Assembly: GCA_030148915.1 (NCBI GenBank)
Contig: JASBSN010000049.1
Span: forward strand, 1 to 46,782
DNA: 46,782 bases
DNA from: Thiogranum sp.
Lineage (GTDB): Bacteria > Pseudomonadota > Gammaproteobacteria > DSM-19610
Direction: 5' to 3'
The notes beneath the pieces are model-generated. The model was given only the letters and a program-made list of their open reading frames with translations, was not told where the DNA came from and ran no database searches. Each line of letters opens with the position of its first letter. Within the stretch, counting starts at the first letter, position 1. The position numbers and the translations under genes were made by a program. Shown in pieces: positions 7,101-44,646 of the stretch.

Positions 7101-10100
7101 GGCGCACGATGCAGAGCGTTAGCGTAAATAACAGAAGCGGCCAGACGTCCATAGACTTGCGCCTCGGCCTCCGTCGCGTTTAGAAGGCGCAGTACTTCCT
7201 GGCTGTGAAACCATGCCATTTCAAATGCCCGTTCGACGAAGTGCCGGTCACAATACTTCTCAAGCAGCAACATCGCCGCCTCGCGCGTGTCGGCAACACC
7301 GGATATTATCTGTACGCTCGCCGATGCGTCCGCAGCCAGGCTAATGCTACGGCGGATTGCCACGATGGGGTCGAGCACCGGACCTTCGCTGTTGGACAAA
7401 TGCTCCGCCTGCGAGGAGCGGTCACGGCGTTCCAGCGCCAGCGGGTTGACCGCCGATCGGCCCCGACCGATGAATTTTGCGCGATCAGTCTCGTAGGAAG
7501 CCTCACTGGTAACGGCGCCTGGCGCCGCAAACAGGTGAAACATCCACGGTACCTGCTCACCCGGGGTGCGCGGACGTCGGGTGCAGAGAATCGCCTGACG
7601 GTCCGAGAGAATTTCCGTCTGCACAAACAAATTACTGAACGCGCGATGCGACAAGTCGGCATTCATGGGCGCCAATACGACTTCGGCGTAACTTGTCACC
7701 TCGATGTGACGCAGGCGGGAAGACAGGTTGGTGAGCGTGACGCGGCGAATCTCGACGTCATCTTCCGGCGACACACTGATTTCTGTGTGAGACTCAATGG
7801 CTTGATCACGGCGCCGGTATTCAGCCCGTGCCTGGACGAAGATCGCCTCGTAGTGGTCGGCTTTGCGCAGCGTCGGCTGGTAGGCGGTTGACCAATAGCG
7901 CTCTGTGTCGCGATCACGCAAGTAAATGAATGTGCCCCAGCAGTCGGACGTAGCGTCCTCCCGCCAACGCGTGACGGCCAGCTCGCGCCAGCAGCTGTAA
8001 CCTCCGCCGGCGTGGGTCGCCATGGTATGGTACCTGCCGTTTGACAACAGGTGGACCTCGGGGACAGGGGTATTGGGGTCGGTGAATACGCGCATGATCG
8101 CGGCGCCTTCGGCGGCGGCCGGACGGGCCGCGGCGCTGACTTCAGCGGCATGCGGGTGCAAGGTGCCCACCTGTTTCGGCACGCGCTCCTGCAACAACAA
8201 CTGCGTCGCCCGCACCAGCGGGTCAGACATAAAGCGGCGCTGCATCGGCCGGTTCAGCAACACGTGATCAAGTGCCAGGAGCGTCATGCCCTGATGGTGC
8301 GCCATAAAGGCCCGCACAATGGCGTGATTTTTTCCCCGGGGTACCCGAGCCGGCGTGTAATCGACGGCCTCATAGAAACCATAGCCGCCGATAAAACCTT
8401 CCGCGCCAAGCCGCTGCATGTTACGACAGGCCTCCTGCGGCACCACCGTCAGCGCCAGAGCGCTGGCATAGGGCGCAATGACCAGGTCATCACCCAGTCC
8501 ACGCTTGAGGCCCAGTCCGGGCACGCCGAACGCCCGGTACTGATAGACCTGATGCATATCGGTGGCGTTATAACAGGATTCGGAAATACCCCAGGGCACG
8601 CCGCGTTGTCGGCCGTACTCAATCTGGCGCGCTACCGCCGCCTTACAGGTCTGCTCAAGCAAGGTATTCTGATAACCGGGCATAATGAGTCGCGGCATAA
8701 GGTACTCAAACATCGAACCGCTCCAGGAAATCAGGCTCACATTGCCGCCATGGCTGGTCAGCATACGGCCGAGTTCGAACCAGTGCCTCTGTGGCACCTG
8801 TCCCTGCGCAATGAGAAGGAAGCTTGCCAGGCGCGCCTCGGATGCGAGCAGATCGTAGCAAGACGGATCGCGGCGCCGCTCGCCGACGTCGTAACCAATA
8901 GCCAGCAGGTCGCGGGACGTATCGTAGAGAAACTCGTAGTCCATCGCCGCGAGGTCCCGACAACGGTTCACCAGATCATCGATGGTCCTCACTCGCGCCT
9001 GTGCAGCCTGGTAACGAGACCCCGGCGCGCCGACCGACAGTGGTGTATCGGTCACAACGCCGCGTACAGCCGCCAGTTCCGCCAGGGTGGGGATAGGGTC
9101 AGCGTTGTTAGTCTCCGCCAGCAGGAACTTCAGGTCTTCCTGGAGTGCGCGCGACTGCCGGTCGAAAGCCTGTGTCCAGTAGTACAGTTCGCCATCTATA
9201 TCAATATCCGTCGGCAGATACGCCGCCAGTCCTGCGCCCGCCTGATGGACGGTATCCAACAAGTCGGTAGCAACAGACAGGGACAGTGGTTGAGCGGTGC
9301 GTAAGCCTGCCTCCAGTGCATCGCGCAGAAACCTGACCTGCTTGTCCAAATCCGGTGCCGGGGATGCGGGGAGGTTTTCGCTCAATACCTCCAAGGTGTC
9401 TTTCAGCCCTTCAAAGGCATTTAGCGTCAGCACCGTTTGGTGCTCCAGTTCAATGAGCCCCGCCTCCAACGTAAGCAGGCTGCCGGACAGATTGCCGCTG
9501 TCCACCGACGAGACATATTGCGGGCGCAGGGGTTGCAGTGTTCGCGTGTCATACCAGTTATAAAAATGACCGCGGTAGCGCTCCAGCTTTTCCATCGTCG
9601 CCAGTGTGTTCTCGGTACGCTGCAGGAGCTCACCGGCACAAATATAACCCAAGTCATACGCCGCGAGATTCGCCAGCAACGACATACCGATGTTGGTCGG
9701 CGAGGTCCGGGAAGCGATAACCGCTGCGGGATACTCCTGGAAGTTGTCCGGTGGCAGCCAGTTCTCCAGTGGCCCGACGAAATCGGAAAAAAAACGCCAG
9801 GTTCTGCGGGCCGAAGCACGCAGGAACTGGCGTTGCTCGGCGCTCAGGTTCGGCGCGGGGGATACGAGCGGCAGGCTGATCCACCAACCGATGACCGGCG
9901 AAATAAACCAGAGCAGCAAAAGCGGAGCCCAGTAGAACCACTCCGCCGAGCGGGTATGCCACAGTATCAAGGTCAGTCCCGCGGCCATAGCCGGTGCAGC
10001 CCACATCTCTATGACGAAGTCTGTCAGCGTCTTGCGCGCATTGCGTCGCGCGTAGGAAGGTAAATGCCAGAGCAGCAATCCTCTGCGGGTAAACAACATC

Positions 10101-29554: not shown

Positions 29555-31243
29555 GTGCATGAGACCTTAAATATGATGTTGCCGCTCGCAGTCTTACTTG
29601 CGGCCGGCGTGATCTCCACCGCATTGTTGCCGCGCTTCGGAATCCCGGCAATTTTCGGGTACTTCTGCGCCGGCGTGGTTGTTGGTCCGTCTGTCACCGG
29701 CTGGGTGCCGATGTCCGATACGGTGGAATTGCTGGCTGAATTTGGCGTTATTTTCCTGCTGTTCGATATCGGTCTGCATTTTTCCCTGAAGCAGCTATGG
29801 GCGGCAAAAAAAGACTTTCTTACCATGGGTCCGTTGCAATGGGCTGGCACGACGGCGGTGATTGCCGGCGCGCTGGGGCTATTGGGCATCGCACCGGTAA
29901 CGTCAATTTTGCCAGTCGCCGGTGCGCTGGCACTGTCCTCCACCGCCGTTGCACTGCAAACCCTCAACGATCGTGGCGAACAAGGCACGCCCATGGCGCA
30001 TTCGGCCACAGCACTCCTGATATTTCAGGACGTGGTCGCCGTGATCCTGCTGGCCCTGATCAGTGCGGATACCGCCAACAGCGACTCGGCCACCTCGTTG
30101 ACGCTTGCCCTGGGTAAGGCTGCGCTCTCCATTGCCGCTGTGGCGGTCATCGGACGATTGTTGCGCCCGGGCTTTGCCTGGATTGTCGGCGCCGGACTCG
30201 ATGAGGCCTTCACGGCGGCCGCCTTGCTGGTGGTGGTGGTGACCGCGAGTCTAACCGGGCTGGCCGGTCTGTCGTTACCGCTCGGTGCGTTTCTTGGCGG
30301 CATGCTGCTCTCGGAATCCGAATACTGCTACATGATCAAAACCGAGCTGAAACCGTTTCGTGGGCTGTTACTGGGCCTGTTTTTCATCACCGTGGGTATG
30401 TCGCTGGATGCCAGCGTGGTCTCAGCTTATCTGGGGATCACATTGGCCGTTGCCGGAGCGTTGCTACTGGTCAAAGGGGTGCTTGTGGCACTCGCGGCAA
30501 GGCTGACCGGTATCAGCGCGGCGGTGTCACTGCGCCTGGGTTTCACCCTCGGTCAGGGTAGCGAATTCGCTTTTGTCATCTTGACCGCCATGGCGGCCTC
30601 CGATGCCATTGCGCCCACGTTGGCCGCGATCCTGACCGCCTCGGTGGTCATCACCATGGCACTTACGCCTGCGCTGGCGCCGCTGGGCGATCGGTTGAGT
30701 GCGCGGTTGGCGGCGCGTCTGCTCGACGACGATTCAGCCGGCGACGAGGCGTCACGCCATGTGCTCATAAACGGCGCTTCCGACACTGAACTGACCGTGG
30801 CGAGCGCGCTCACCGCCTTCGGCCATCGCTATCTGGCCCTGGATTCTGACCGAAAGGCCGTCGCCCGGGCACGTTCATTGGGTTTCAGCGCCGGGGTGGG
30901 CAATCTCAATGATGCCCAACTGGTAGAAAGCTTTGCCGAGACGCCCGATGTTTTGATCGTCGGTCGCACCACGCATAAGGATGCCCAGGCGCTGATCCGG
31001 CGCCTGAAACAACGTCGCCCCAACCTGGACATCATTACCCGAGTGGCCGATGAAACCGATGCCGTACCGCTTCGCGGCTTGGGCGCGGTGGTCTGTGTCG
31101 CGCCTAAAGACCCTGATAATCGCACCCTCGCCATTGAAACGCTGCGGTATCTCAACGTCGCCGAAGACGACATCCAGGCGTGGGCACAACGTTTCGACGA
31201 CAATCCGCAATGGGAGAAGGCGGATAAGGCGCATGCCGTCTGA
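29555..31243 (+). CDS. CPA2-family cation:proton antiporter (KefB/C-like) with RCK/TrkA-N domain
   Basis: A 562-residue membrane protein. The N-terminal part has about 12 helices of the Na+/H+ exchanger fold, with GPSVTGWVP, LLFDIGLHFSL, LSSTAVALQTL and FQDVVAVILLAL near helices 3-6. The C-terminal RCK/TrkA-N Rossmann domain starts near residue 402. Its first strand reads HVLINGASDTELTVAS and lacks the GxGxxG expected for NAD binding, so ligand control may be altered. KefB/C-type proteins exchange K+ for H+, often after electrophile or oxidative stress. It lies 42 bp downstream of the cNMP-domain flavoprotein, so the two probably form an operon. Confidence 0.9.
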   Translation: MHETLNMMLPLAVLLAAGVISTALLPRFGIPAIFGYFCAGVVVGPSVTGWVPMSDTVELLAEFGVIFLLFDIGLHFSLKQLWAAKKDFLTMGPLQWAGTTAVIAGALGLLGIAPVTSILPVAGALALSSTAVALQTLNDRGEQGTPMAHSATALLIFQDVVAVILLALISADTANSDSATSLTLALGKAALSIAAVAVIGRLLRPGFAWIVGAGLDEAFTAAALLVVVVTASLTGLAGLSLPLGAFLGGMLLSESEYCYMIKTELKPFRGLLLGLFFITVGMSLDASVVSAYLGITLAVAGALLLVKGVLVALAARLTGISAAVSLRLGFTLGQGSEFAFVILTAMAASDAIAPTLAAILTASVVITMALTPALAPLGDRLSARLAARLLDDDSAGDEASRHVLINGASDTELTVASALTAFGHRYLALDSDRKAVARARSLGFSAGVGNLNDAQLVESFAETPDVLIVGRTTHKDAQALIRRLKQRRPNLDIITRVADETDAVPLRGLGAVVCVAPKDPDNRTLAIETLRYLNVAEDDIQAWAQRFDDNPQWEKADKAHAV

Positions 31244-31328
31244 TCGACGGTTTCGCCTGCCCTTCCCCCTCGATCCAGACCGAGGCCAGGCAACATGAGC
31301 AGGGATTCACAAAAAGCAGGATGGGTGC

Positions 31329-31808
31329 CTACTGCATATAGGCATGATTCTCTTCGTATTGAAGCCGAACGATCTCTGCATCGCCCATGGGCACCATCTC
31401 GACAAAGCCGTGGATGTCTTGGGCGCTCAATCCCTGACTTTCGGCGGCCAGTTTGCACATCTTAAAGCGTATCAGTCCACCTACTGACAAGCTTTGCGCC
31501 CGCTTTTGCAGATTATCATATTGGCTGTAATTTTTTATGGCGAAGAATTTGATGGATGATCCGTGTAGCACAACCACAATAGACTGCTCGAACGGATCCG
31601 CTCCGGTGAGCTTACTCAAGTAGCTTACCCGATCCAACACATGCGCCAGCTGGTCGAGCTCGCCGGTGGTAACATCATAAACGACCTTCATCGGCTTATA
31701 GTCAGTCTGTGTAACCTGTGCACGACCCCAGGGCGCCTGTTCGCCCGCCACCACCGCGCAGACCGATAAACACAAGCCAAGCGCAAGCAAAATCTTCGGA
31801 TACAGCAT
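31329..31808 (-). CDS. Secreted DsrE-family protein
   Basis: A 159-residue protein. The ATG at 31808 is chosen because GGAGG lies seven bases upstream and the next residues form a signal peptide (MLYPKILLALGLCLSVCAVVAGE). The mature part is a DsrE-like fold: VVYDVTTGELDQLAHVLD, then VVVLHGSSIKFF and the conserved cysteine region RFKMCKLAAESQGL. DsrE-like proteins carry or sense sulfur at that cysteine. It follows nsrR at the 3' end of the nirK cluster with a 40-bp gap, suggesting joint expression. The function in the periplasm is unknown. Confidence 0.82.
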   Translation of the reverse strand: MLYPKILLALGLCLSVCAVVAGEQAPWGRAQVTQTDYKPMKVVYDVTTGELDQLAHVLDRVSYLSKLTGADPFEQSIVVVLHGSSIKFFAIKNYSQYDNLQKRAQSLSVGGLIRFKMCKLAAESQGLSAQDIHGFVEMVPMGDAEIVRLQYEENHAYMQ

Positions 31809-31848
31809 TAACGATTCCTCCACATGCGAAACGCGTAGCGTACAGGTA

Positions 31849-32268
31849 TCAATTGAACAATTTTTTTACCGTACTGCGGCTTTGCAACAGATCGGCCAGC
31901 GAGTGCTGCTTTATTTCATTAATAAACATATCCTGTGCTCTGGAAAACACACAGCTCAGCTCACACGAAGCGCGCAGCGGACAGCGTGACTTATCACAGT
32001 CGATCAATGGCCTGATGCCTTCGAACTCCAGAAACAGCTGGCCAATATTGATCTCTTCCGGTGGCTTGTTAAGCTCCATACCGCCGCCCTTGCCGTGATA
32101 GGTCCTGATATAACTTAGACCGGAAAGACGGTGCACCACTTTGCGCAGATGTTCGTGCGAAATACCATAGTATGCGGCGATTTCCGCCATCGTGATACGA
32201 CGCTTGTTATTCACCGCGACATACATCAAAACTCTGTACGCGTAGTCGGTGTAGTGACTGATTTGCAT
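31849..32268 (-). CDS. nsrR: Rrf2-family regulator, NsrR type (nitric oxide sensor)
   Basis: A 139-residue winged-helix regulator. The start at ATG 32268 (MQISHYTDYAYRVLMYVA) aligns with the family; the longer open frame upstream is not NsrR-like. The three cysteines are Cys91, Cys96 and Cys102 (CDKSRCPLRASC), exactly the positions that hold the Fe-S cluster in characterised NsrR. A fourth Cys106 follows. The HTH includes AAYYGISHEHLRKVVHRLS, and HGKGGGMELN forms the wing. NO damage to the cluster would relieve repression of the nirK cluster, in which it is the fifth gene. Confidence 0.88.
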   Translation of the reverse strand: MQISHYTDYAYRVLMYVAVNNKRRITMAEIAAYYGISHEHLRKVVHRLSGLSYIRTYHGKGGGMELNKPPEEINIGQLFLEFEGIRPLIDCDKSRCPLRASCELSCVFSRAQDMFINEIKQHSLADLLQSRSTVKKLFN

Positions 32269-32374
32269 AGTAAAAGGGCTTCTTCGCGGCGCCGGGCAGT
32301 TGCATGCAAATATCCTCCATATCGACCGGCAAATCAACCGTCGCCCAGTACTTCACCGCGGCAAGCCTTCGCTA

Positions 32375-33457
32375 CTATTCAGCCTTTTGCTTCTTTTTCT
32401 TTTTCTGTTTTTTGATTTTCTCGCCCTTGAATGCCGCATGATCATACATGCCGTAGGGTTGGCGCAGCTCATCACTCATATAAAAATCGGGATCGTAGGT
32501 CGCGTCCTTGTCTTTCCAAACGTACCAGTCATCCTTCTTTATGCCATCGTATTCGACCACCGTTATCGCGCCGCCCGGCGCTTTCCCATTATTTGACGTG
32601 TGGTGATCAATGTGATCGTGATTGATCCAGCGCCCCGGGTTGTTCATGCGCACGATAACGTCTTTCCGAGAGCCGACCGGCACGTCCACCACATCCGCCC
32701 AATACGGCGAATCGAGCGGCAGACCGTCTTTGTGGGTTACCAGGACATCATGGCCGTGCAGATGGTAGGCCGTCTCGACACTGACGCTATAAAGTCTCAG
32801 CCTGAGTACATCCCCTTTTTTTACGCGCAACGGCTGATCGGTCGGGAAGGCCTTACCGTTGATCGAAAAATAGTTCGGCAGCTCTCTGGGATCTCCGCCC
32901 TTGCCAAACTCCATTGCCACATCCGAATTCCAGGCAGAGAACATGAGGATGGCATCTTTGGTAACCTCTTTCTCGATGGGAGTGGGGTTTTGCGGGTCGA
33001 CAATCAGCGGTCCCCACATACCTCGTAAGCCGACATGCTCTGGGACGTTGACATGGCAGTGGTACCAGAGACTACCGGGCTTGTCAGCGACAAATTTGTA
33101 CACATAACTGTCACCCGGCTCGATCGCCTGCTGGGTAATGTTCGGCACGCCATCACTGCGCCACGAATTGGTCTGATAGACTCCATGCCAATGCACGGTA
33201 TGGTTCAACGTCGTGAAATTATGCACAGTCACTTCAACGTTATCGCCTTGCTTGACGTGGATCAGCGGCCCGGGGACCTGTCCGTTAAAAGCCCAGACTT
33301 TGGTCTTGAACCCCGGGGCCACTTCCAGCATGACCTCTTCAATTGTCATTTCAAACTTTCTTAATTCGGCGTGACTACTTTTAAAGGGGAACGCCGACAA
33401 TGCGAACCCCAGCAGCAGAAACACCGTCACACTCGTGCCTAATGATGTTTGCTTCAT
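32375..33457 (-). CDS. ncgA: Two-domain multicopper oxidase (NcgA/BCO-like)
   Basis: A 360-residue periplasmic protein with a signal peptide (about 1-30). Copper motifs: HTVHWHG (HxH) and WYHCHVNVPEHVGLRGMWG in domain 1, and YHLHGHDVLVTH and NHDHIDHH in domain 2. The type-1 cysteine is present only in domain 1 (HCH); domain 2 has HDH. That is a two-domain multicopper oxidase with its type-1 site in domain 1. Nitrosomonas carries such an oxidase (NcgA) in the NsrR-regulated ncgABC-nirK operon. The C-terminus is an extremely lysine-rich tail (KIKKQKKKKKQK). It is encoded 12 bp after the monohaem cytochrome gene. Confidence 0.87.
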   Translation of the reverse strand: MKQTSLGTSVTVFLLLGFALSAFPFKSSHAELRKFEMTIEEVMLEVAPGFKTKVWAFNGQVPGPLIHVKQGDNVEVTVHNFTTLNHTVHWHGVYQTNSWRSDGVPNITQQAIEPGDSYVYKFVADKPGSLWYHCHVNVPEHVGLRGMWGPLIVDPQNPTPIEKEVTKDAILMFSAWNSDVAMEFGKGGDPRELPNYFSINGKAFPTDQPLRVKKGDVLRLRLYSVSVETAYHLHGHDVLVTHKDGLPLDSPYWADVVDVPVGSRKDVIVRMNNPGRWINHDHIDHHTSNNGKAPGGAITVVEYDGIKKDDWYVWKDKDATYDPDFYMSDELRQPYGMYDHAAFKGEKIKKQKKKKKQKAE

Positions 33458-33469
33458 TGTTACCGCCCT

Positions 33470-33835
33470 CTATTTTTGCTTCTGCGTGCAGCACAACGAG
33501 CGCAGATACTGCACCAGCGCACTGATCTGATCGTCCGAGAGATTTCCGTCCCAATTAGGCATCAACACCGACTTGTCAACGGATTTCCCACCGTGCTTGA
33601 TCGCCTTGAACAGGTCCTTGTCAGTACGCGTCATCATTTCTTTACGGTCGGTATGATCCCTGGGCAGCACTTCCATATCCGCAACGTTAATGCCATAGCC
33701 GTCACCCTCAATGCCGTGACACTGCGTACAGTAGGTTCGATATAGGATCTTGCCCGCCTCAATCTCGTCTTCGCTGGCATACGCCGTCTGAATCGCCGCT
33801 AGCAGAGACATGCTGATGATAATTTTCCGGATCAT
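33470..33835 (-). CDS. Periplasmic monohaem cytochrome c (NcgC-like)
   Basis: A 121-residue protein with a signal peptide (MIRKIIISMSLLAAIQTAYA) and one haem c motif CTQCH (about residues 36-40). A probable axial methionine is in VLMPNWDG near residue 92. The end has a Cys-Cys pair (LRSLCCTQKQK). It overlaps the preceding dihaem cytochrome gene by four bases (ATGA). By position it should shuttle electrons to NirK or the multicopper oxidase. Confidence 0.88.
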   Translation of the reverse strand: MIRKIIISMSLLAAIQTAYASEDEIEAGKILYRTYCTQCHGIEGDGYGINVADMEVLPRDHTDRKEMMTRTDKDLFKAIKHGGKSVDKSVLMPNWDGNLSDDQISALVQYLRSLCCTQKQK

Positions 33836-34557
33836 GGCCTCTTCTCCCCGATGAGTTTGAGATAATCAACCAGTTTGTGGATCTCAGGTTCCTGTAGATG
33901 CTTGTTCGGCATCATGGAATGCGGATCCCACGCCACCGGATTCTTGATATAAGAAACCATGAATTCCGGCTGCAGCCTGTTCCATGCGCTGTACAGCTCC
34001 GGGCCGGACAATCCTCCCACCCCCTCCTCGTCGCGATGGCATGCAGAGCAGCCCTTGAATTTGTTAAAATTCATTTTGCCGAGCATCGGAGAAACTTCTT
34101 TCGGCTGGTACGCCGTTTTCAGTGGCGGTCGAGCCTTCAGGTGTAGCGTCAAAAGAAATTCGGCGACATCACCGGCCTTGGGCTTGGCGACAGACGGGTG
34201 CTCCGGCAATGTCTTCTCGTCGATGACGTCGCCATCGTCTGTCACCACTGTATGATCCGGAGGAAAGCCGCCTCCGGGTCTTATCCGGCTGGGCGATTGG
34301 AGCCAGCCCTGCAGCCATTCTTTTTTGAACTTGTCACCGGCATAGTAGAGAGGCGGGCCTTTTCGGCGCAGACGTTCGCTCATGTCATTCACATCGAAAT
34401 CATCTGCTGACAAGGCGTGACAGCCCGCGCATTTATCTTGTATATATTTTTCCGTATCTGAGGCGATCGCCGTCTGCGCGGCTACAACACCGATAATACC
34501 CAACAGGATGACGCTACCAACAGTTGCGCTATCCGGACTCCGGTTAATGACAGGCAT
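33832..34557 (-). CDS. Dihaem cytochrome c (NcgB-like)
   Basis: A 241-residue exported protein with an N-terminal hydrophobic segment (SVILLGIIGVVAAQTA) and two haem c sites: CAGCH near residue 39 and CSACH near residue 170. Likely axial methionines lie in the C-terminal part (DPHSMMPNKH). It is the second gene of the nirK cluster, downstream of nirK and coupled to the monohaem cytochrome by an ATGA overlap. Probable periplasmic electron carrier for nitrite/NO chemistry. Confidence 0.88.
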   Translation of the reverse strand: MPVINRSPDSATVGSVILLGIIGVVAAQTAIASDTEKYIQDKCAGCHALSADDFDVNDMSERLRRKGPPLYYAGDKFKKEWLQGWLQSPSRIRPGGGFPPDHTVVTDDGDVIDEKTLPEHPSVAKPKAGDVAEFLLTLHLKARPPLKTAYQPKEVSPMLGKMNFNKFKGCSACHRDEEGVGGLSGPELYSAWNRLQPEFMVSYIKNPVAWDPHSMMPNKHLQEPEIHKLVDYLKLIGEKRP

Positions 34558-34605
34558 GACAAACCCTCACTTCGTTTCTGTGAAAAGAATCATTCCCTGG
34601 ATCTA

Positions 34606-35541
34606 TTACCTTAGGATGAGATTCCCGTTTCGGCCTTTGTCCGGATCAGCGCCCTTATAGTTCATCAGCACCGTGATAGCGCCATTGAGCGCATGCTTCA
34701 TGCGGTGATCTACGATGGCGTTATTGGTAGCCCTGTCGGCCGGACTGACAATATCAAAGACCATTCCGTGGGCTGGCGGCACGTCAACGGTCTGCATGTC
34801 ATAGCGCACGTTTTTCGGATTGCCGTTATCCCATACCCTTTCCCATATCCCGGCAATAGGATGAAACGCGGCCGATTCATTAATGCTTGCATTGACAAAA
34901 TACAGTCTTACGCGCTCACCCGGCTCTGACTCGAGCGCTATACTGGCGTTGGAATCGTGAACCGGGTCATAGTGAAATAGTTTGCCGTTGATAAGAGAGC
35001 CTTCCCACCCTCTGCCCATAGTGATGTCTTTCGGTTTTGTACCTTCTTCGAACAGGTCCCCCTGGACGATGACGTACTCGCGATCAGGTTTCGGAAATTG
35101 CGCGCTGTAACCTTCGCGAGGATCCACAATAATCACGCCATACATACCTCTTGAGATATGTTCCGACATCGCCTCCGAACCGCAGTGATAAATAAACACG
35201 CCCGGCACTTTTGCCTTGAACTTGAACTTTTTTGTTTTTCCCGGCTTTATGGGGGCGAATTCATCCAGCACATCGACTTGCGCAGCGTGAAAATCCATAG
35301 AGTGGCTCTGGTGATTACTCTCGGCGTTATGCAGGGTGAAATCCACCACATCGCCTTGCTTGACGCGAATCAGCGGCCCCGGAATGGTGCCGCCGAATGT
35401 CCACATGGCGTGAGTGGTACCGGCATTGTCAATTTGCAACGGCAGCTCCTTGGCCGTCATTTCGACACTTACGGTTTCGGCGAGGGCGACATCGGTCAGG
35501 CCGACGCACAACAACAACAGCGAAATGGCAGGTCTCTTCAT
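34606..35541 (-). CDS. nirK: Copper-containing nitrite reductase, Nitrosomonas-type NirK
   Basis: A 311-residue periplasmic enzyme (signal peptide about 1-21) that reduces nitrite to NO. Copper ligands: HQSHSMDFHAAQVD (catalytic Asp and type-2 His), YHCGSEAMSEHISRGMYG (type-1 Cys, His, Met and the second type-2 His), FHPIAGIWERVWDNG (catalytic His) and VDHRMKHALNGA (third type-2 His). All key residues are present. The compact length matches the ammonia-oxidiser type. It leads a minus-strand cluster: nirK, dihaem cytochrome, monohaem cytochrome, multicopper oxidase, nsrR, dsrE. Ribosome site GGGAGA; an NsrR-type operator lies 18 bp upstream of the ATG. Confidence 0.93.
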   Translation of the reverse strand: MKRPAISLLLLCVGLTDVALAETVSVEMTAKELPLQIDNAGTTHAMWTFGGTIPGPLIRVKQGDVVDFTLHNAESNHQSHSMDFHAAQVDVLDEFAPIKPGKTKKFKFKAKVPGVFIYHCGSEAMSEHISRGMYGVIIVDPREGYSAQFPKPDREYVIVQGDLFEEGTKPKDITMGRGWEGSLINGKLFHYDPVHDSNASIALESEPGERVRLYFVNASINESAAFHPIAGIWERVWDNGNPKNVRYDMQTVDVPPAHGMVFDIVSPADRATNNAIVDHRMKHALNGAITVLMNYKGADPDKGRNGNLILR

Positions 35542-35558
35542 AATTATTCTCCCACTTT

Positions 35559-35581
35559 TAAATGTATTTCAATTACATGTT
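35559..35581 (-). promoter_or_regulatory. NsrR-type operator upstream of nirK
   Basis: TAAATGTATTT, one base (C), AATTACATGTT. The right arm read on the other strand is AACATGTAATT. Both arms match the 11-1-11 NsrR consensus arm (AAGATGYATTT) at most positions, centred on ATGTA. The position just upstream of the nirK ribosome site suits repression. The nsrR gene lies in the same cluster. Confidence 0.7.
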
Positions 35582-35644
35582 ATATTGCGTAATGATGTTT
35601 TTCAAGCGCATTAATGATAAATTATTCCAAGCGGTGTCGGGTGC

Positions 35645-36823
35645 CTAGCGCACTGACCGGTAGCCCTGAGTACGGTTGCGTTTGCTCAACACCAGCTGCC
35701 ACAACTGCCCCTGCCGTGAGCGAAAAAAACCGGCGCAACTCATCAGATAGTACTTCCACATGCGGTAGAACCGACGATCATATTTTTGTGCCAATTTAGG
35801 CCAGGCTGCGTCAAAATTATCCCACCAGGCCATTAGGGTGCGTTCGTAGTCGGTGCCGAAATTATGCCAGTCTTCAATCAGAAAACAGTTCTCAACAGCG
35901 CCCGCTATCTGGCGTGCCGACGGGAGTTTCCCATTCGGGAAAATATACTTGTCGATCCATGGGTCCACGGTGTGTGAAGTGGCATAAATACCAATGGTAT
36001 GCAGTAAAAAAAGACCGTCATCTTTCATTAAACGCGCCGCAGTATCGAAATAGACGCGATAGTTTTTCGGTCCCACGTGTTCGAACATGCCGACAGAGAC
36101 CAGTTTGTCATACTTCCCCTGCAGCTCACGATAGTCCATTAGCTCGATATGCACTGGCAATCCGGCACACCGCTCCTGCGCAAACCATTGCTGCTCTCGG
36201 GAAACGGTTATACCGGTCACTTCAGCTTGATAATATTTTGCGGCGTGCCGAGCCAGACTGCCCCAGCCACAACCGATTTCCAGTAACCGTTCTCCCGGCT
36301 GCAAATCGAGCTTTTTGCAGATCATATCCAACTTGTCGTGTTGGGCTTGTTCTAGATTGTTTGCGTAACGCCAATAGCCGCAGGAGTAAGTCATATTCCT
36401 GCCCAGCATGGCCCGGAATACGTCATTGCCGGCATCGTAGTGATGCTCGCCCACCTGAAAAGCCCTCTGGCTCGACTGCAGGTTCAATACAGTCTGGCGG
36501 ACCACTTCGGCCAGCAAGCGGACTCGGGGCCGACCGGCCAATTTTTCGTCAATGTCAAAGCGCAGCAGGCGTGTAAACAGCTCATCCAATGCTTCGGCAT
36601 CCCATAAGCCATCCATATAGGTCTCACCGAAACCCAATGAGCCGTGTCTCAGAATGCGCTGGTAGACGATGGGATCGTAAACCTGTATATCCCAGGGTTT
36701 GCTGGCGTTGAAGCCCACCCCTGCGCGCTGCGCAAGTTTCTGCAGTATTTCGGGAGCCTCGATGCCGGAGTGATCGACCATGTCGCATCTGACATCGCAC
36801 GATCGGTTTTCGTCTCTCCGCAT
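35645..36823 (-). CDS. cfa: Cyclopropane-fatty-acyl-phospholipid synthase
   Basis: A 392-residue SAM-dependent methyltransferase that adds a methylene bridge to unsaturated membrane acyl chains. It has the family HHYDAGNDVFRAMLG segment (about residue 128), the SAM site LEIGCGWGSLARHAAKYY (about 182), the motif SVGMFEHVGPKNY, and FPNGKLPS. The first ~20 residues are not obviously conserved, so a slightly later start is possible. It appears monocistronic, downstream of an AT-rich intergenic region. Confidence 0.93.
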   Translation of the reverse strand: MRRDENRSCDVRCDMVDHSGIEAPEILQKLAQRAGVGFNASKPWDIQVYDPIVYQRILRHGSLGFGETYMDGLWDAEALDELFTRLLRFDIDEKLAGRPRVRLLAEVVRQTVLNLQSSQRAFQVGEHHYDAGNDVFRAMLGRNMTYSCGYWRYANNLEQAQHDKLDMICKKLDLQPGERLLEIGCGWGSLARHAAKYYQAEVTGITVSREQQWFAQERCAGLPVHIELMDYRELQGKYDKLVSVGMFEHVGPKNYRVYFDTAARLMKDDGLFLLHTIGIYATSHTVDPWIDKYIFPNGKLPSARQIAGAVENCFLIEDWHNFGTDYERTLMAWWDNFDAAWPKLAQKYDRRFYRMWKYYLMSCAGFFRSRQGQLWQLVLSKRNRTQGYRSVR

Positions 36824-37081
36824 AAATGAGCCCTTTCTTGATTTTTAGTAGCTTGTTGGCGGAGACGATATAATCACGGCTAGTTATTAACAAACAATAT
36901 TTATTGATCTTTTATATCTACAGATTCGATACAAGTAGCGGCGGCCTTGTGGTGGGGAAGGTGTTCTTACCACCCCGGGGTCCTCCGTTACGGAAGCCAC
37001 AACGCCATAGCAATGCAATCAAGTATTTAATATATTTGTTATAATGCCGATAATCGGCACCCAAGCCAGTTCTACCCGACA

Positions 37082-37095
37082 GGGCATATTTGCCC
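37082..37095 (+). promoter_or_regulatory. Small hairpin in the leader of the DsrC-like gene
   Basis: GGGCA, four bases, TGCCC lie 14 bases upstream of the ATG at 37110, next to a weak GAGAGAG ribosome site, so they could affect initiation. The upstream sequence to about 37020 is AT-rich, suiting a promoter. Confidence 0.3.
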
Positions 37096-37109
37096 ATGAG
37101 AGAGAGTCT

Positions 37110-37754
37110 ATGCTACGCATTCGAGTCCTGATGAAGTTCACCGACGAACCGGTAAAACGCACCCCCGTCACCCTCTACCTGGACACCGATCCGCAGCATC
37201 CGATCGAGGGTGCCACCGACCGCGGAGGTGTCGCGACGTTTGATATCCCGCCTGCCAGCGGAAAAATCGTAGTGAACGGATCAACCCGGCATCACGGGAG
37301 GCTCGACGGCGACATTGCCATTGCCCTGTGGTCCCCGACCGACGCCGATAGTGTGGCCGAATACGGCGCCCCTGGGGGTGGCGAGAGCGGCAGCATCGCT
37401 TATCCCAGCATGCAGATCCGCACGCTTGAGGTGAACGGGAAATCGGTCGAAACCGACAGTGAAGGCTATTTGGTCAACCTGGATGACTGGTCGGAGGCGT
37501 TTGTACGCGCACAGGCGGACCACGAAAATCTGCCGCTCACCGACGAAACCTGGGAGGTGATCCGCTTCCTGCGAGACTTTTATGAAACCCATCAGATCCA
37601 GGCCAACGTCCGCGAAGTTATTAAGCATTTTCGCAAAATATGGGGGCCCGAGCGCGGCAGTAACCGGTATTTGCACACCATTTTCCCGCGCGGTGGGCCG
37701 CAGAAACAAGGCAATCGATTGGCGGGTTTGTTGCGTACTAAGGGCGAACACTAA
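37110..37754 (+). CDS. Cysteine-less DsrC/TusE-like protein with an N-terminal beta-type domain
   Basis: A 214-residue protein from ATG 37110 (an in-frame ATG at 37044 is less likely). Residues 1 to about 100 look like a small Ig/carboxypeptidase-regulatory-like beta domain (LRIRVLMKFTDEPVKRTPVTLYLD, then ATDRGGVATFDIP). Residues 106-214 are a full-length DsrC/TusE domain: EGYLVNLDDWSEAFV, LPLTDETWEVIRFLRDFY, REVIKHFRKIWGPERGS and YLHTIFPRGGPQKQ. DsrC normally ends KQACKIAGL...GCV with two redox cysteines; here the tail is KQGNRLAGLLRTKGEH, so both are replaced (Asn202, Glu213). It cannot form the DsrC trisulfide. A regulatory or binding role is inferred. A decayed second copy lies at 16523-16659. 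Confidence 0.85.
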   Translation: MLRIRVLMKFTDEPVKRTPVTLYLDTDPQHPIEGATDRGGVATFDIPPASGKIVVNGSTRHHGRLDGDIAIALWSPTDADSVAEYGAPGGGESGSIAYPSMQIRTLEVNGKSVETDSEGYLVNLDDWSEAFVRAQADHENLPLTDETWEVIRFLRDFYETHQIQANVREVIKHFRKIWGPERGSNRYLHTIFPRGGPQKQGNRLAGLLRTKGEH

Positions 37755-37781
37755 CCCGAGGCCGACGCTCCCGACGAAAGA

Positions 37782-38228
37782 TTACAACCCAGTCTTGGCG
37801 CGGCCCAGTGCCCGTAACAAGGCCGGGCGGTTTACCACCAGATCAGCCAGTGTGTAGGTATCCAGAACCGCATAAAAAGCTTGCTCGGCTTTCTCGAACG
37901 CCCCACGCAACACACAAACCCGTTCTATACGGCAGTCCGAGGCGCCCTGAGTGAAACACTCCACCAGGGCGCTGCCGTCCTCCGACTTGCGCACCACCTC
38001 CCCGACGCGGACGCGTTCAGGATTGACGTTCAGCTGCACGCCGCCCCCTTTGCCCCGCGTTGTTACCACGTAACCCTCGGTGGCTAAAAACAAAATGACT
38101 TTCATCAGATGATTTCTCGAGATCTGATAGGCCTGCGCGATCTCACCGACCTGCGCCCGCCGCTCCGCGTGGGTACCGAGGTAAATCAGCACACGCAACG
38201 AATAATCGGTAAATGTAGTCAATCGCAT
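37782..38228 (-). CDS. nsrR: Second Rrf2-family regulator, NsrR type
   Basis: A 148-residue regulator beginning MRLTTFTDYSLRVLIYLG. The HTH has YQISRNHLMKVILFLATEGYV and the wing TRGKGGGVQL. Three cysteines lie at 91, 99 and 105 (ECFTQGASDCRIERVC), and the C-terminal helix reads LDTYTLADLV as in NsrR. The first gap is longer than in the copy at 31849. It is divergent from nnrS, an NO-response gene, and convergent with the DsrC-like gene (27 bp apart). Likely NO-responsive control of nnrS and its own gene. Confidence 0.88.
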   Translation of the reverse strand: MRLTTFTDYSLRVLIYLGTHAERRAQVGEIAQAYQISRNHLMKVILFLATEGYVVTTRGKGGGVQLNVNPERVRVGEVVRKSEDGSALVECFTQGASDCRIERVCVLRGAFEKAEQAFYAVLDTYTLADLVVNRPALLRALGRAKTGL

Positions 38229-38279
38229 CGATTAGGCTCAACAGGGGCGGTCGCTGGCCCGGAACGGTCACTATACCTT

Positions 38280-38298
38280 TGTCGCTAAAAACGCGACA
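38280..38298. promoter_or_regulatory. Dyad in the nsrR-nnrS intergenic region
   Basis: TGTCGC, seven bases (TAAAAAC), GCGACA: perfect six-base arms between the divergent nsrR and nnrS starts. It is a candidate operator but does not match NsrR. The AT-rich stretch at about 38340-38365 may hold the promoters and at best an NsrR half-site. Confidence 0.35.
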
Positions 38299-38408
38299 GC
38301 GCGGGGCCACGATCACAGGGTGATTTTTCAGCTTGTCTTTAATTGTAGCATATTATATCTTACTTTTAATTACGCGCGTTCCACGCAAGCGAGGAAGCTG
38401 TTGAACCC

Positions 38409-39617
38409 ATGCCCATGATGAACATCGACACCGCCGGATCCAACCCGAATCGCCGCTTCGCCCTTTTTGCGCTGGGTTTCCGGCCCTTTTTCAGCCTCGC
38501 CGGACTCTTCGCGGTGCTAGGTATGCTGCTGTGGATGCTGATGTTTGGGTTCTCGCTGCAATTGCCGCTGAGCGGCCTGTTACCGACCATCTGGCATGCC
38601 CACGAAATGGTTTACGGTTACGCCATGGCGGTCATTGCGGGGTTTCTGCTGACGGCGGTCGGAAACTGGACCGGTATCCCCAGTTTTCAGGGCTGGAAGC
38701 TGTTTATCGTCGTGGCGTTTTGGCTCATCGCACGGGTGGCCTTTTTTCTTCCAGTGGAAGGCTCTTTATCGCTTTCGGCTGTGGCGGATGTTTTGTTTAT
38801 GCTGGGACTGATTATGGGTGTAAGCCTCCCGGTAATCCGCGCCAGGCAGTGGGCGCAACTGGGCATTATCTTTAAGTTGGTCTCGATGCTGCTGGCCAAC
38901 GGTCTGTTCTATGCCGGGGCGCTGGGTTATCTGAGTCACGGCATCTCTTGGGGGCTTTATACAGGGTTCTATCTCATTGTGGCGTTGGTCTTCATGATGG
39001 CTCGGCGAGTCTTGCCCTTTTTCATCGAACGGGGTGTGGACGAGCCCTTTTCGGCACGCAATCGACGCTGGATTGATATCGCCAGTCTGGTGCTGTTCCT
39101 CGTCTGGGCCAGCCTGGATATTTTCACGCAACAGCGGCTGCTGATCGGCTGGCTTTCTTTGGCTTTGTTGGTAGTACATGCCTGGCGCTTGTTTGACTGG
39201 CATACCGCAGGAATCTGGAAAAAACCGCTGTTGTGGTCGCTGTATCTGGCCTATGCGTTCCTGTCTGTCGGCTTTTTATTGAAGGCGCTGTCTGTTTGGC
39301 AGGGTGTTTCACCTTTTCTTGCCTTACACGCGTTCGCCGTCGGTGGTGTCGGGCTGATGACCATCGGCATGATGTCGCGCGTCGCCCTGGGCCATACCGG
39401 GCGAAATGTTTTCGAGCCGCCCGCGGTATTGGCGCCGGTGTTTGCGCTGATCGTTCTGGCGGCGATCGCACGGGTGGCGTTTCCGTTGCTGGATGCGGGA
39501 CACTACAAGCTCTGGATCACCCTTTCACAGGTACTGTGGATAACCGGGTTCGCCGCGTTCTCGGCGGTGTATATACCCCAGCTCATGCGGCCACGGGTTG
39601 ACGGGCAGCCCGGTTAA
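38409..39617 (+). CDS. nnrS: NnrS family membrane protein (nitric oxide response)
   Basis: A 402-residue protein with about 12 membrane helices. Family marks are LGFRPFFSLAGLFAVLGM at the start, WHAHEMVYGYAMAVIAGFLLTAVGNWTG (about residues 62-90), and near the end LHAFAVGGVGLMTIGMMSRVALGHTGR. Conserved histidines in these motifs fit the haem/copper binding reported for NnrS. It protects cells from NO stress, probably by limiting iron-NO complexes. It is divergent from the second nsrR. Confidence 0.93.
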   Translation: MPMMNIDTAGSNPNRRFALFALGFRPFFSLAGLFAVLGMLLWMLMFGFSLQLPLSGLLPTIWHAHEMVYGYAMAVIAGFLLTAVGNWTGIPSFQGWKLFIVVAFWLIARVAFFLPVEGSLSLSAVADVLFMLGLIMGVSLPVIRARQWAQLGIIFKLVSMLLANGLFYAGALGYLSHGISWGLYTGFYLIVALVFMMARRVLPFFIERGVDEPFSARNRRWIDIASLVLFLVWASLDIFTQQRLLIGWLSLALLVVHAWRLFDWHTAGIWKKPLLWSLYLAYAFLSVGFLLKALSVWQGVSPFLALHAFAVGGVGLMTIGMMSRVALGHTGRNVFEPPAVLAPVFALIVLAAIARVAFPLLDAGHYKLWITLSQVLWITGFAAFSAVYIPQLMRPRVDGQPG

Positions 39618-42167: not shown

Positions 42168-43241
42168 TCAGAAACGAATATGTGTCGAGTGATTGAGCGT
42201 ATACCTCGCGCCCGACCAGTTATCAATATGGAAGCGGGTGAACGGCAGATCGGTCATGGCGAAAAATCGTTCCCAGCCGATGCGGTCGATCCATTCACCC
42301 AGGCGCTCCCACTCCATGGCATCGTCCTTGTAGCACTGGAGAATATTCTTCACCACGGCCGTGGCCTCCGGCCAGCGCGGTGGGTTATTCGGTAAGCCGG
42401 CGGCCACCAGCTTCTGCATACTGGGTTTGGAGCGCGCGTTGGAGTTCTTGCCGCCAACCCAGATCGCCAGTTTTGAATGCTCGGGGTCGTTGATCTGCAT
42501 CGGCGGACAGGGCGGATAACAGGCACCGCAGCAGATGCATTTCTTTTCATCCACCTCCAGCGACGGCCGGCCGTTGACCAGGGCCGGGCGGATCGCGGCA
42601 ACCGGACAGCGCGCCACGACCGAGGGTCGTTCGCAGATATTGGCCACCATATCGTGGTTGATTTTAGGCGGCTTGGTGTGCTGAATATTGATAGAAATAT
42701 CGGCCTGCCCACCGCAATTAATCTGACAGCACGAGGTGGATAAGCGCACCCGGTTGGGCATTTGTTCGTGGATAAATTCCTCATGCAGGGCATCCATCAT
42801 GGACTTGGCCACGCCGGAGGCGTCGGTCGCCGGGATATCACAATGCAGGAACCCCTGGGTATGGGCGATCATGGACATGGAATTGCCCGTGCCGCCGACC
42901 GGGAAGCCCTCTTCGCCCAACTTCTCGATCAGGGCCGCGACCCGGTCGCCGTCCCCCAGCATAAACTCGATGTTGCTGCGTATCGTGAACCGTACGTAGC
43001 CGTCGCCGTACTCGTCGGCAATATGACAGAGCTTGCGAATGGTGTCGGTATCCATTTGTCGTTGGGTACCGGCGCGCACCGTCCAGATTTCATCGCCCTG
43101 AACGGACACATGGTGCAGGACACCCGGGCGCGGGCGTTCATGCCAGTCCCACTGGCCATAGTTCCTGCGCATCAGCGGATGCATGTAGGGGAACGGGTCC
43201 GGCACCCCGCTTTCGATCGCCTGACGTACGGTATTTTGCAT
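42168..43241 (-). CDS. dsrB: Dissimilatory sulfite reductase beta subunit
   Basis: A subunit of 357 residues starting at ATG 43241, which overlaps the dsrA stop (TGATG) and has AAGGAG seven bases upstream. The sirohaem/4Fe-4S region includes STSCCQINCGGQADIS, and the ferredoxin domain has KKCICCGACYPPCPPMQIND. It partners with DsrA to convert sulfide or DsrC-bound sulfur to sulfite in sulfur oxidisers (reverse Dsr), or sulfite to sulfide in reducers. The oxidative direction is inferred from the window's other genes. dsrE, dsrF and dsrH do not follow; the next gene is the convergent ptsP. Confidence 0.94.
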   Translation of the reverse strand: MQNTVRQAIESGVPDPFPYMHPLMRRNYGQWDWHERPRPGVLHHVSVQGDEIWTVRAGTQRQMDTDTIRKLCHIADEYGDGYVRFTIRSNIEFMLGDGDRVAALIEKLGEEGFPVGGTGNSMSMIAHTQGFLHCDIPATDASGVAKSMMDALHEEFIHEQMPNRVRLSTSCCQINCGGQADISINIQHTKPPKINHDMVANICERPSVVARCPVAAIRPALVNGRPSLEVDEKKCICCGACYPPCPPMQINDPEHSKLAIWVGGKNSNARSKPSMQKLVAAGLPNNPPRWPEATAVVKNILQCYKDDAMEWERLGEWIDRIGWERFFAMTDLPFTRFHIDNWSGARYTLNHSTHIRF

Positions 43242-44479
43242 CACATGACTCCTTCTTTTTCGGCGTGACGCTCACGCCACTTGTCGGCCTCTTCTTCCCA
43301 GGTGTCCATGCGCACGAACGAATTGCTTCGCGGTTGTGCCACCATGGCGGGTTCCACGTCGAGCCCCACACCTTCGAGAAAGTTTGCCAGCCCGATACGT
43401 TCGATCATTTCGCCACAACGTTCGTGTTCCAGGCCGTTCTCGGCCCAAAAATCGATAATGGTCTCCGCGAGCTCCACCAGACTCTCGTAATCTTCAGCGG
43501 ATTGCAGTTTTTTGAAGGGCACTATTACAGTTCCGAACAGATCGCCGATCTTGAGGGTACGTTTACCGCCAACAAGAATCGTCACACCGCGGTCTTTGCC
43601 CGGCGAAAGCGCTTTGGTCATCACGTTGATGCAGTGCATGCAGCGCACGCAATTGCGGTTGTCGATATCAATGCTGTCATCGTCTTTGAGCGTCATGCAG
43701 CGGGTCGGGCAACGGGTGATGACATTGTCAATAACGTATTGCCTGCCCTTTTTCTCGACAAACGCCTTGACCTCCTGCGGTTTGACCTGGATTTCGTCAC
43801 GCCAGGTACCGATAACCGCCATGTCGGAGCGCTGCACGGAGTTCATGCAATCGTTGGGACAACCGGAGAATTTGAACTTGAACTTGTAGGGTAGCGCCGG
43901 ACGGTGCAGGTCGTCGGTAAAGGAATTCATCACCGTGCGATGCGCTACCGCCTCATTAAAACAGGAATGCTCGCAACGCGCCGCGCCGACACACGACATC
44001 GAGGTACGCACCGATGGGCCTGCACCGCCCATATCGAAGCCGAGCTCGTTGATGGCATCGAAGGCATCCTGGACTTTCTCAGAGGTGCAACCCTGAAACA
44101 TCATGTCACCGCTCTGACCGTGCAGGGCGAGCAGACCGGAACCGTGTTCGTCCCACACATCACAAAACTTGCGCAAAATATCGGTATCGTAGTGCATACC
44201 CGGCGGCGGCATAATGCGCAGTGTATGGAACTCCTTCGAGGCCGGGAACTTGTCGGCCACCTCGGAGAAACGCGGTATGACCCCGCCGCCGTATCCCATC
44301 ACGGACACGGTGCCACCTTTCCAGTAACCCTTTTTGTTGGCGTAGGAGTATTCAAGCTGCCCGAGCAGATCGGACATCATTTCATTTTTCTCCGCCAGCC
44401 GTTTAAACCCGGTGACGAAACTGGGCCATGGACCACTTTCCAGCTGATCCAGGTTGGGTGTGTCATGCTTCTTTTTCAT
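43241..44479 (-). CDS. dsrA: Dissimilatory sulfite reductase alpha subunit
   Basis: A 412-residue protein, choosing ATG 44479 (MKKKHDTPNLDQLESGPWPSF) with GGAGG eight bases upstream; this matches usual DsrA length. Cluster-binding cysteines: SCVGAARCEHSC and GCPNDCMNS (sirohaem-linked 4Fe-4S), then CPTRCMTL and CVRCMHCINVM in the ferredoxin domain. It is translationally coupled to dsrB. The upstream region is strongly AT-rich with a dyad. Only dsrAB are present here; dsrEFHCMKLJOPN must be elsewhere or absent. Confidence 0.95.
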   Translation of the reverse strand: MKKKHDTPNLDQLESGPWPSFVTGFKRLAEKNEMMSDLLGQLEYSYANKKGYWKGGTVSVMGYGGGVIPRFSEVADKFPASKEFHTLRIMPPPGMHYDTDILRKFCDVWDEHGSGLLALHGQSGDMMFQGCTSEKVQDAFDAINELGFDMGGAGPSVRTSMSCVGAARCEHSCFNEAVAHRTVMNSFTDDLHRPALPYKFKFKFSGCPNDCMNSVQRSDMAVIGTWRDEIQVKPQEVKAFVEKKGRQYVIDNVITRCPTRCMTLKDDDSIDIDNRNCVRCMHCINVMTKALSPGKDRGVTILVGGKRTLKIGDLFGTVIVPFKKLQSAEDYESLVELAETIIDFWAENGLEHERCGEMIERIGLANFLEGVGLDVEPAMVAQPRSNSFVRMDTWEEEADKWRERHAEKEGVM

Positions 44480-44646
44480 GCGTAAAGCCTCCAACTGAAT
44501 AAAATATAAGCAGAAGTCCAAACACCCTGGGCACAACGCTCACAGCGGGTGGGCCTCCCCGGTTTACCAACTACTCCGTCTTTACCCTGATTCCCATAAG
44601 GTCTTAGGCATAATTTGAATATAAGCCAACAATAATTAAATACAAA

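Follow-up and report, generated by a model that had tools for sequence, protein, structure and literature searches.

A nirK-first variant of the ncg-nirK gene module with a linked NsrR-like repressor gene in Thiogranum sp.

The window analyzed here, a stretch of 46,782 nucleotides from Thiogranum sp. (GenBank contig JASBSN010000049.1, our contig C5 of a 3.22-Mb genome that is 99% complete), carries a cluster related to the ncg-nirK module. Six open reading frames on the minus strand, between positions 31329 and 35541, are arranged in the transcription order nirK, dihaem cytochrome c, monohaem cytochrome c, multicopper oxidase, nsrR-like, and dsrE-like (Table 1). With A standing for the oxidase gene, B for the dihaem cytochrome c gene, C for the monohaem cytochrome c gene, and K for nirK, the cluster reads K-B-C-A. 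This K-first order marks a lineage separate from the A-B-C-K lineage that contains Nitrosomonas europaea. The K-first lineage is linked to an NsrR-like repressor or to a NorR activator, never to both in the loci seen, and the window belongs with the NsrR-linked loci. We consider it likely that the cluster is a nitric oxide (NO)-responsive, NsrR-controlled, K-first variant of the module, in which NirK would make NO and the oxidase would keep this tolerable.

The N. europaea cluster is listed as ncgABC-nirK, that is, A-B-C-K (Table 1 of PMC4940428). An earlier note, made from the letters of the window, had described the Thiogranum cluster as the same parts in the opposite order. The parts are the same, but they are not reversed: B still comes ahead of C, and only the two copper-enzyme genes are swapped. 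A simple reversal would read K-C-B-A and was ruled out on this ground. The genes are closely spaced, with 48 bp between K and B, a 4-bp overlap of B and C, and 12 bp between C and A. The gap between A and nsrR is 106 bp if nsrR starts at the preferred ATG at 32268 (the listed start is a TTG), and dsrE follows nsrR after 40 bp, a distance that assumes the preferred dsrE start, an ATG at 31808 with GGAGG ahead of it. Promoter and terminator scans returned a number of sites not above that in shuffled sequence, and an Rfam scan of positions 30500-39000 gave no match.

Table 1. Features of the nirK-first cluster and its upstream neighbor, in window coordinates.
Feature	Position	Strand	Evidence
nirK (K), copper nitrite reductase, first gene of the operon	34606..35541	-	family match; 4kns, E 5e-97; invariant candidate copper/catalytic residues
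ncgB-like dihaem cytochrome c (B)	33832..34557	-	cytochrome c domains; CxxCH at 43 and 170
ncgC-like monohaem cytochrome c (C)	33470..33835	-	cytochrome c domain; CxxCH at 36
ncgA-like two-domain multicopper oxidase (A)	32375..33457	-	Cu-oxidase domains; 2zwn, E 1.5e-143; 3g5w, E 4.6e-110
nsrR-like Rrf2 repressor, 139 aa, Cys spacing C-X4-C-X5-C	31849..32268	-	Rrf2 domain; 100.5 bits to the NsrR model
DsrE/YchN-fold protein, hydrophobic N-terminal helix, probably exported, local add-on	31329..31808	-	structure model; fold match
NsrR-like palindrome ATGTAATTGAAATACAT (minus strand), 15/16 positions, overlaps a promoter-like site	35562..35578	.	site scan
cfa, cyclopropane fatty acyl phospholipid synthase	35645..36823	-	family match; also upstream of nirK in Thiogranum sp. 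BWSM_146 (L091)

The assignment to the ncg/nirK type, already made in the earlier note, is borne out by the proteins. A NirK with candidate copper ligands, adjacent NcgB and NcgC cytochromes with B first, and a two-domain oxidase related to NcgA are all present; the A-B-C-K order, typical of the module but not defining it, is replaced by K-B-C-A. The closest solved chain of NirK is 4kns, and its residues H80, D83, H85, H119, C120, H128, M133, H227, and H279, which we take to serve the type-1 and type-2 copper sites and catalysis, are identical across a 20-sequence alignment. Likewise, the candidate copper ligands of the oxidase are identical in 20 aligned oxidases. The haem motifs number two CxxCH in the 241-residue product of B and one in the 121-residue product of C. 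The oxidase does not lie phylogenetically far from NcgA, and the distant placement that the earlier note had named as damaging to its own proposal did not come about: the nearest solved chains of the oxidase are 2zwn and 3g5w, and the oxidases of both orders form one family. Presumably 4kns and 3g5w are the NirK and the oxidase of N. europaea.

The K-first order is found in many other hosts. A scan of named genomes with the NirK alignment gave 341 relatives, and the best 80 loci were analyzed, a set biased toward the NirK of the window. After exclusion of 13 loci with incomplete or cut clusters, 39 K-B-C-A, 26 A-B-C-K, and two B-C-A-K clusters were counted, the last in Marinobacter guineae (L134) and one metagenome-assembled genome (MAG; L133). 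The recurrence of the same four-gene order in 39 of the best 80 loci is more than chance would give, and the view that the order is peculiar to this cluster had to be dropped. Hosts of K-B-C-A clusters include Haliea, Sediminihaliea, Shewanella salipaludis, Thioalkalivibrio denitrificans, Denitromonas, and Cognatazoarcus, as well as MAGs labelled Rhodospirillaceae, Sneathiella, Campylobacteraceae, and Gemmatimonadetes. Among 369 genomes sampled evenly across the class, 31 had NcgB matches with E ≤1e-3 and 21, the genome of the window included, had matches below 1e-20. These 21 held K-B-C-A in the window's genome and in G021 and A-B-C-K in 17; the cluster of G209 is split over two contigs and compatible with A-B-C-K, and G212 has no nirK in the stretch examined. 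The two samples overlap (L131 is a contig of G021), and their counts are not additive. Two Nitrospirae groundwater MAGs (L153, L161) carry K-B-C without a recognised oxidase, their NirKs nonetheless falling inside the A-B-C-K clade, and a Pseudohongiella MAG (L110:2658 and 6971) has a second, distant nirK (33%) together with nnrS a few kb from its K-B-C-A cluster.

The separation of the two main orders is also seen in the trees, all of which were quick builds without bootstrap. In the tree of the joined four proteins, built from 65 complete loci (64 plus the window) and two N. europaea chains, the K-B-C-A loci fall on one side (support 96) and the A-B-C-K loci, N. europaea included, on the opposite side (support 100), with B-C-A-K between the main orders, on the K-B-C-A side. 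The NirK tree likewise has a K-first set of 42 rows (Shimodaira-Hasegawa-like approximate likelihood ratio test, 98) and an A-B-C-K side of 35 rows (100), and the B and the C trees each require a single change between K-B-C-A and A-B-C-K. In the oxidase tree the A-B-C-K rows group together, and the remainder, including both B-C-A-K rows, lie on the other side. B-C-A-K is a natural intermediate, one copper-gene move from either main order. It was also considered as the ancestor: with distant NirKs as the outgroup, the NirK tree places it near the base, but the oxidase tree nests it on the K-B-C-A side. Both B-C-A-K rows are long-branched, and the single-gene trees disagree on their placement.

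The regulatory part of our proposal concerns the fifth gene and the site ahead of the first. The repressor has an Rrf2 domain and three conserved cysteines, and a palindrome, the putative operator, stands before its presumed target gene. We use the term "NsrR-like" because its score lies under the NCBIfam cut-off. The palindrome before nirK scores 15 of 16, against 8 before ncgA, 10 before nsrR, and 11 before dsrE, and three NsrR-like sites with at most three mismatches were observed in the whole window, against 0.46 expected. Sites were counted in 37 of the 39 K-B-C-A loci, as two had too little upstream sequence. Palindromes of at least 13/16 stand before the first gene in 8 of the 37 K-B-C-A and 12 of the 26 A-B-C-K loci, and the last copper gene is never preceded by one (0/37 and 0/26). 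The palindrome thus belongs to the front of the operon and not to a particular gene. Within K-B-C-A it is present in 8 of the 12 loci with a linked Rrf2 gene and in none of the 25 without one, at a threshold that was picked after the scores were seen. In the repressor tree, from which L105 and L109 were left out, the repressors encoded behind the oxidase in the window, L091, and L098 cluster with their counterpart behind B-C-A-K in Marinobacter (support 96). The link to NsrR drawn in the earlier note from the ncg operon is plausible here too, judging from the palindrome before nirK. The window has a second Rrf2 gene (37782-38228, minus strand) that diverges from nnrS (38409-39617, plus strand). 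Its wider cysteine spacing, C-X7-C-X5-C, is that of the Rrf2 genes adjoining A-B-C-K clusters, and the region between it and nnrS has no palindrome of note, the best NsrR-like one scoring 10/16.

Other K-first loci are linked to NorR. NorR is encoded next to nirK in 18 of the 39 K-B-C-A loci; the adjacency rule gave 17 of these, and L123, in which the NorR match runs into the called start of nirK, was added. A linked NsrR-like gene occurs in another 12, the two never occur in the same locus, and the remaining 9 lack both. Of these nine, four start at most 300 bases from a contig end, and L126 and L114 hold NorR further off. No NorR gene was found beside the 26 A-B-C-K clusters. All nine NorR proteins tested pass the NCBIfam NorR cut-off. 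Boxes scoring at least 8/11 against what we take to be the sigma-54 consensus were found in 16 of the 18 NorR loci and in 1 of the 12 NsrR loci, a score that simple shuffles reach in 19%. FNR/DNR-like boxes of at least 9/10 stand before nirK in 8 of the 37 K-B-C-A loci, none of them with a linked Rrf2 gene.

We propose the following sequence of events. Without NO, NsrR carrying its Fe-S cluster would block the nirK promoter. NO would damage the cluster, and the operon would then be read from nirK to nsrR, perhaps into dsrE. The exported NirK would convert nitrite to NO, with the two cytochromes carrying electrons, and NcgA together with the cytochromes would make NirK activity tolerable, the same part that ncgABC play in N. 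europaea, where nirK and ncgABC are described as conferring nitrite tolerance and nirK as harmful without ncgABC (PMC5080386). Freshly made NsrR would finally reset the switch.

Several points weigh against this proposal. Expression, binding, and activity are all predicted from sequence analysis. The NirK scores 183.6 bits to TIGR02376 (Cu_nitrite_red), under the cut-off of 296.3, and the repressor does not reach the cut-off of 182 of the NCBIfam NsrR equivalog. The palindrome consensus is the one that we take to be that of NsrR, and 25 of the 37 K-B-C-A loci, those without a linked Rrf2 gene, have no such palindrome. The gap ahead of nsrR could hold a promoter of its own, although the scan was not above chance. 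K-B-C-A is a minority in the even class sample, the set of 80 loci being the one biased toward the window's NirK. Finally, loci with the same regulator state tend to lie together on the tree, which needs 4 changes where shuffled states need 9.2, and therefore few independent events stand behind the counts.

NO relieves repression by NsrR and activates NorR. An operon that makes NO would therefore be self-reinforcing, and one that removes it homeostatic. The negative feedback suggested in the earlier note holds in part: the position of nsrR inside the operon would give negative autoregulation, but NO made by NirK would reinforce its own production unless the module consumes NO. The regulator data thus raise the possibility of an NO-removing role without deciding it.

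The cluster could instead be an ordinary denitrification operon, with a respiratory NirK that receives its electrons from the cytochromes, an oxidase that assists in copper handling, and regulators belonging to the denitrification regulon of the host. The genome encodes a COX1-family protein (L220) that is cNorB-like by sequence inspection, with no NCBIfam match at 1e-20; K-first loci occur in denitrifier hosts, and the FNR/DNR-like boxes fit such a role. We nevertheless give this explanation only a limited chance: all 39 complete K-first loci keep the oxidase, which the lineage has in common with nitrifiers; the regulators linked to the lineage are dedicated NO sensors; and narG was not found above the cut-off in this genome.

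A periplasmic NO-oxidising chain, where NirK would oxidise NO to nitrite, the cytochromes would pass the electrons to the oxidase, and O2 would be reduced, would make induction by NO a true negative feedback. NsrR and NorR, the sensors found with the K-first lineage, both respond to NO, the cytochrome genes sit between the copper-enzyme genes in both main orders, and the genome's lack of a narG above the cut-off is in keeping with this. Oxidation of NO to nitrite has also been suggested as a possible activity of the N. europaea NirK (PMC10999283), and PMC6967387 mentions a "nitric oxide oxidase" yet to be identified. However, the K-first hosts include named denitrifiers (Denitromonas and Thioalkalivibrio denitrificans), which fits a reductive role, as do the FNR/DNR-like boxes; gene order is a poor guide to electron flow, and B-C-A-K breaks the pattern; and the narG result covers narG only, a periplasmic nitrate reductase not having been searched for. 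We regard such a chain as unlikely. More doubtful still is its extension to the whole lineage, in which K-first would be a distinct NO-inducible branch, with NirK, NcgB/C, NcgA, and O2 forming the periplasmic chain, NsrR and NorR being interchangeable, and B-C-A-K a surviving intermediate.

It is very improbable that the module is functionally tied to sulfur metabolism through its DsrE-like gene, as the earlier note had proposed: the gene lies directly behind nsrR on the same strand, its product has a DsrE-like fold, and the host, a sulfur oxidiser, has dsrA twice, once in the window, but no dsrE was found in the 80 nirK loci at E ≤1e-3 (some contigs end soon after the oxidase), the relative in Thiogranum sp. 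BWSM_146 (G014), which has the operon and nsrR, is only 53% identical and lies on a different contig, and none of the 15 dsrE neighborhoods examined has nirK or the oxidase. A link through dsrE was therefore rejected as a feature of the module. The protein has no Pfam, NCBIfam, or PDB sequence match, and no DsrE sequence family could be assigned. Its AlphaFold model (predicted local distance difference test score, 92) matches DsrE/DsrF-like, DsrEFH, and YchN folds (1l1s, E 8.7e-7; 2qs7, 3mc3, 3pnx, 2hy5, and 1jx7), and we name it a DsrE-fold protein because the fold matches and no sequence family does. The cysteine at position 118 is nearly invariant. Relatives were found at E ≤1e-3 in 102 of the 369 class genomes, 25 of them below 1e-27, and the closest are in two genomes of the same genus, G008 (69%) and G016 (65%), where the NirK search found no orthologue. 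A search for recurrent neighbors of dsrE gave little; in one locus a SoxH-like hydrolase lies directly behind it. Given its absence from the nirK loci and the nirK-free neighborhoods, dsrE is a local add-on outside the module, possibly co-transcribed with it.

Other dsr-type genes were also noted. A second dsrAB pair lies in the window (42168-44536, minus strand); its DsrA scores 575 bits to TIGR02064, above the cut-off, and the pair shares about 68% identity with its counterpart on contig C35, and a further dsrB-like frame stands at the start of contig C40. A protein of 236 residues (37044-37754, plus strand) has a C-terminal DsrC domain (PF04358) without any cysteine, the roughly 125 residues that precede it having no family match.

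Within the genus, a NirK orthologue was found in 1 of 16 genomes searched besides that of the window, namely Thiogranum sp. BWSM_146 (L091). The block cfa-nirK-ncgBCA-nsrR is common to both, and the genes flanking it in the window (thioredoxin-reductase-like, kef, nnrS, and ptsP) were not found within the 14.8 kb examined in BWSM_146. The patchy occurrence and the changed flanks suggest horizontal transfer, and the operon was probably acquired in this way together with cfa. At 32001-36000 the G+C content is about 52%, near the bottom of the range of the window's 2-kb bins (52-63%), a weak sign in the same direction. Next to the nirK operon of BWSM_146, cfa is directly preceded by a second, broken copy of part of the gene (L035:4533-6236). 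Elsewhere in the window, a 2932-residue protein (4187-12985, minus strand) combines GH94 and glucoamylase-like domains, a combination that we take to be that of cyclic beta-glucan synthases.

The module itself is known, and its K-first order-and-regulator variant is real, widespread, and apparently undescribed: no description of the K-first order, of the alternation of NsrR and NorR, or of B-C-A-K was found in the literature searched, most subscription journals and preprints being outside its coverage. Even in N. europaea the role of ncgABC is said not to be fully worked out (PMC6967387). The sister lineage offers natural contrasts, as its enzymes stay the same while their control changes between NsrR, NorR, and an FNR/DNR-like type and the hosts include both lithotrophs and named denitrifiers, some of them cultured; it makes the question of whether the module makes or removes NO directly testable. 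It also calls for caution with metagenomic nirK counts, which mix the K-first and A-B-C-K lineages.

Compared with known systems, the add-on protein shares its predicted fold and the nearly invariant Cys 118 with DsrE/DsrF and YchN proteins, and differs from them in its hydrophobic N-terminal segment and its lack of a Pfam or PDB sequence match. In the zetaproteobacterial nirK-ncg cluster (PMC3603346), nirK adjoins ncgB/ncgC and ncgA homologues, as in the window, but two ncgA homologues are reported, and the description used gives no gene order. The B-C-A-K clusters of Marinobacter guineae and the MAG have the genes of the window, and the repressor behind the former is of the same kind, whereas nirK stands last and the oxidase third. 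The K-B-C-A clusters with a divergent norR (Haliea, Denitromonas, Cognatazoarcus, and others; L092, L099, L120, L122, and L128) share the order and the clade of the window, with NorR and sigma-54-like boxes where the window has its NsrR-like gene and palindrome. Finally, the ncgABC-nirK cluster of N. europaea has the same four orthologous genes, with B before C and a link to NsrR, whereas in the window K comes first and A last, the cluster lies on the opposite side of the four-gene tree, and the repressor gene stands at the end of the operon.

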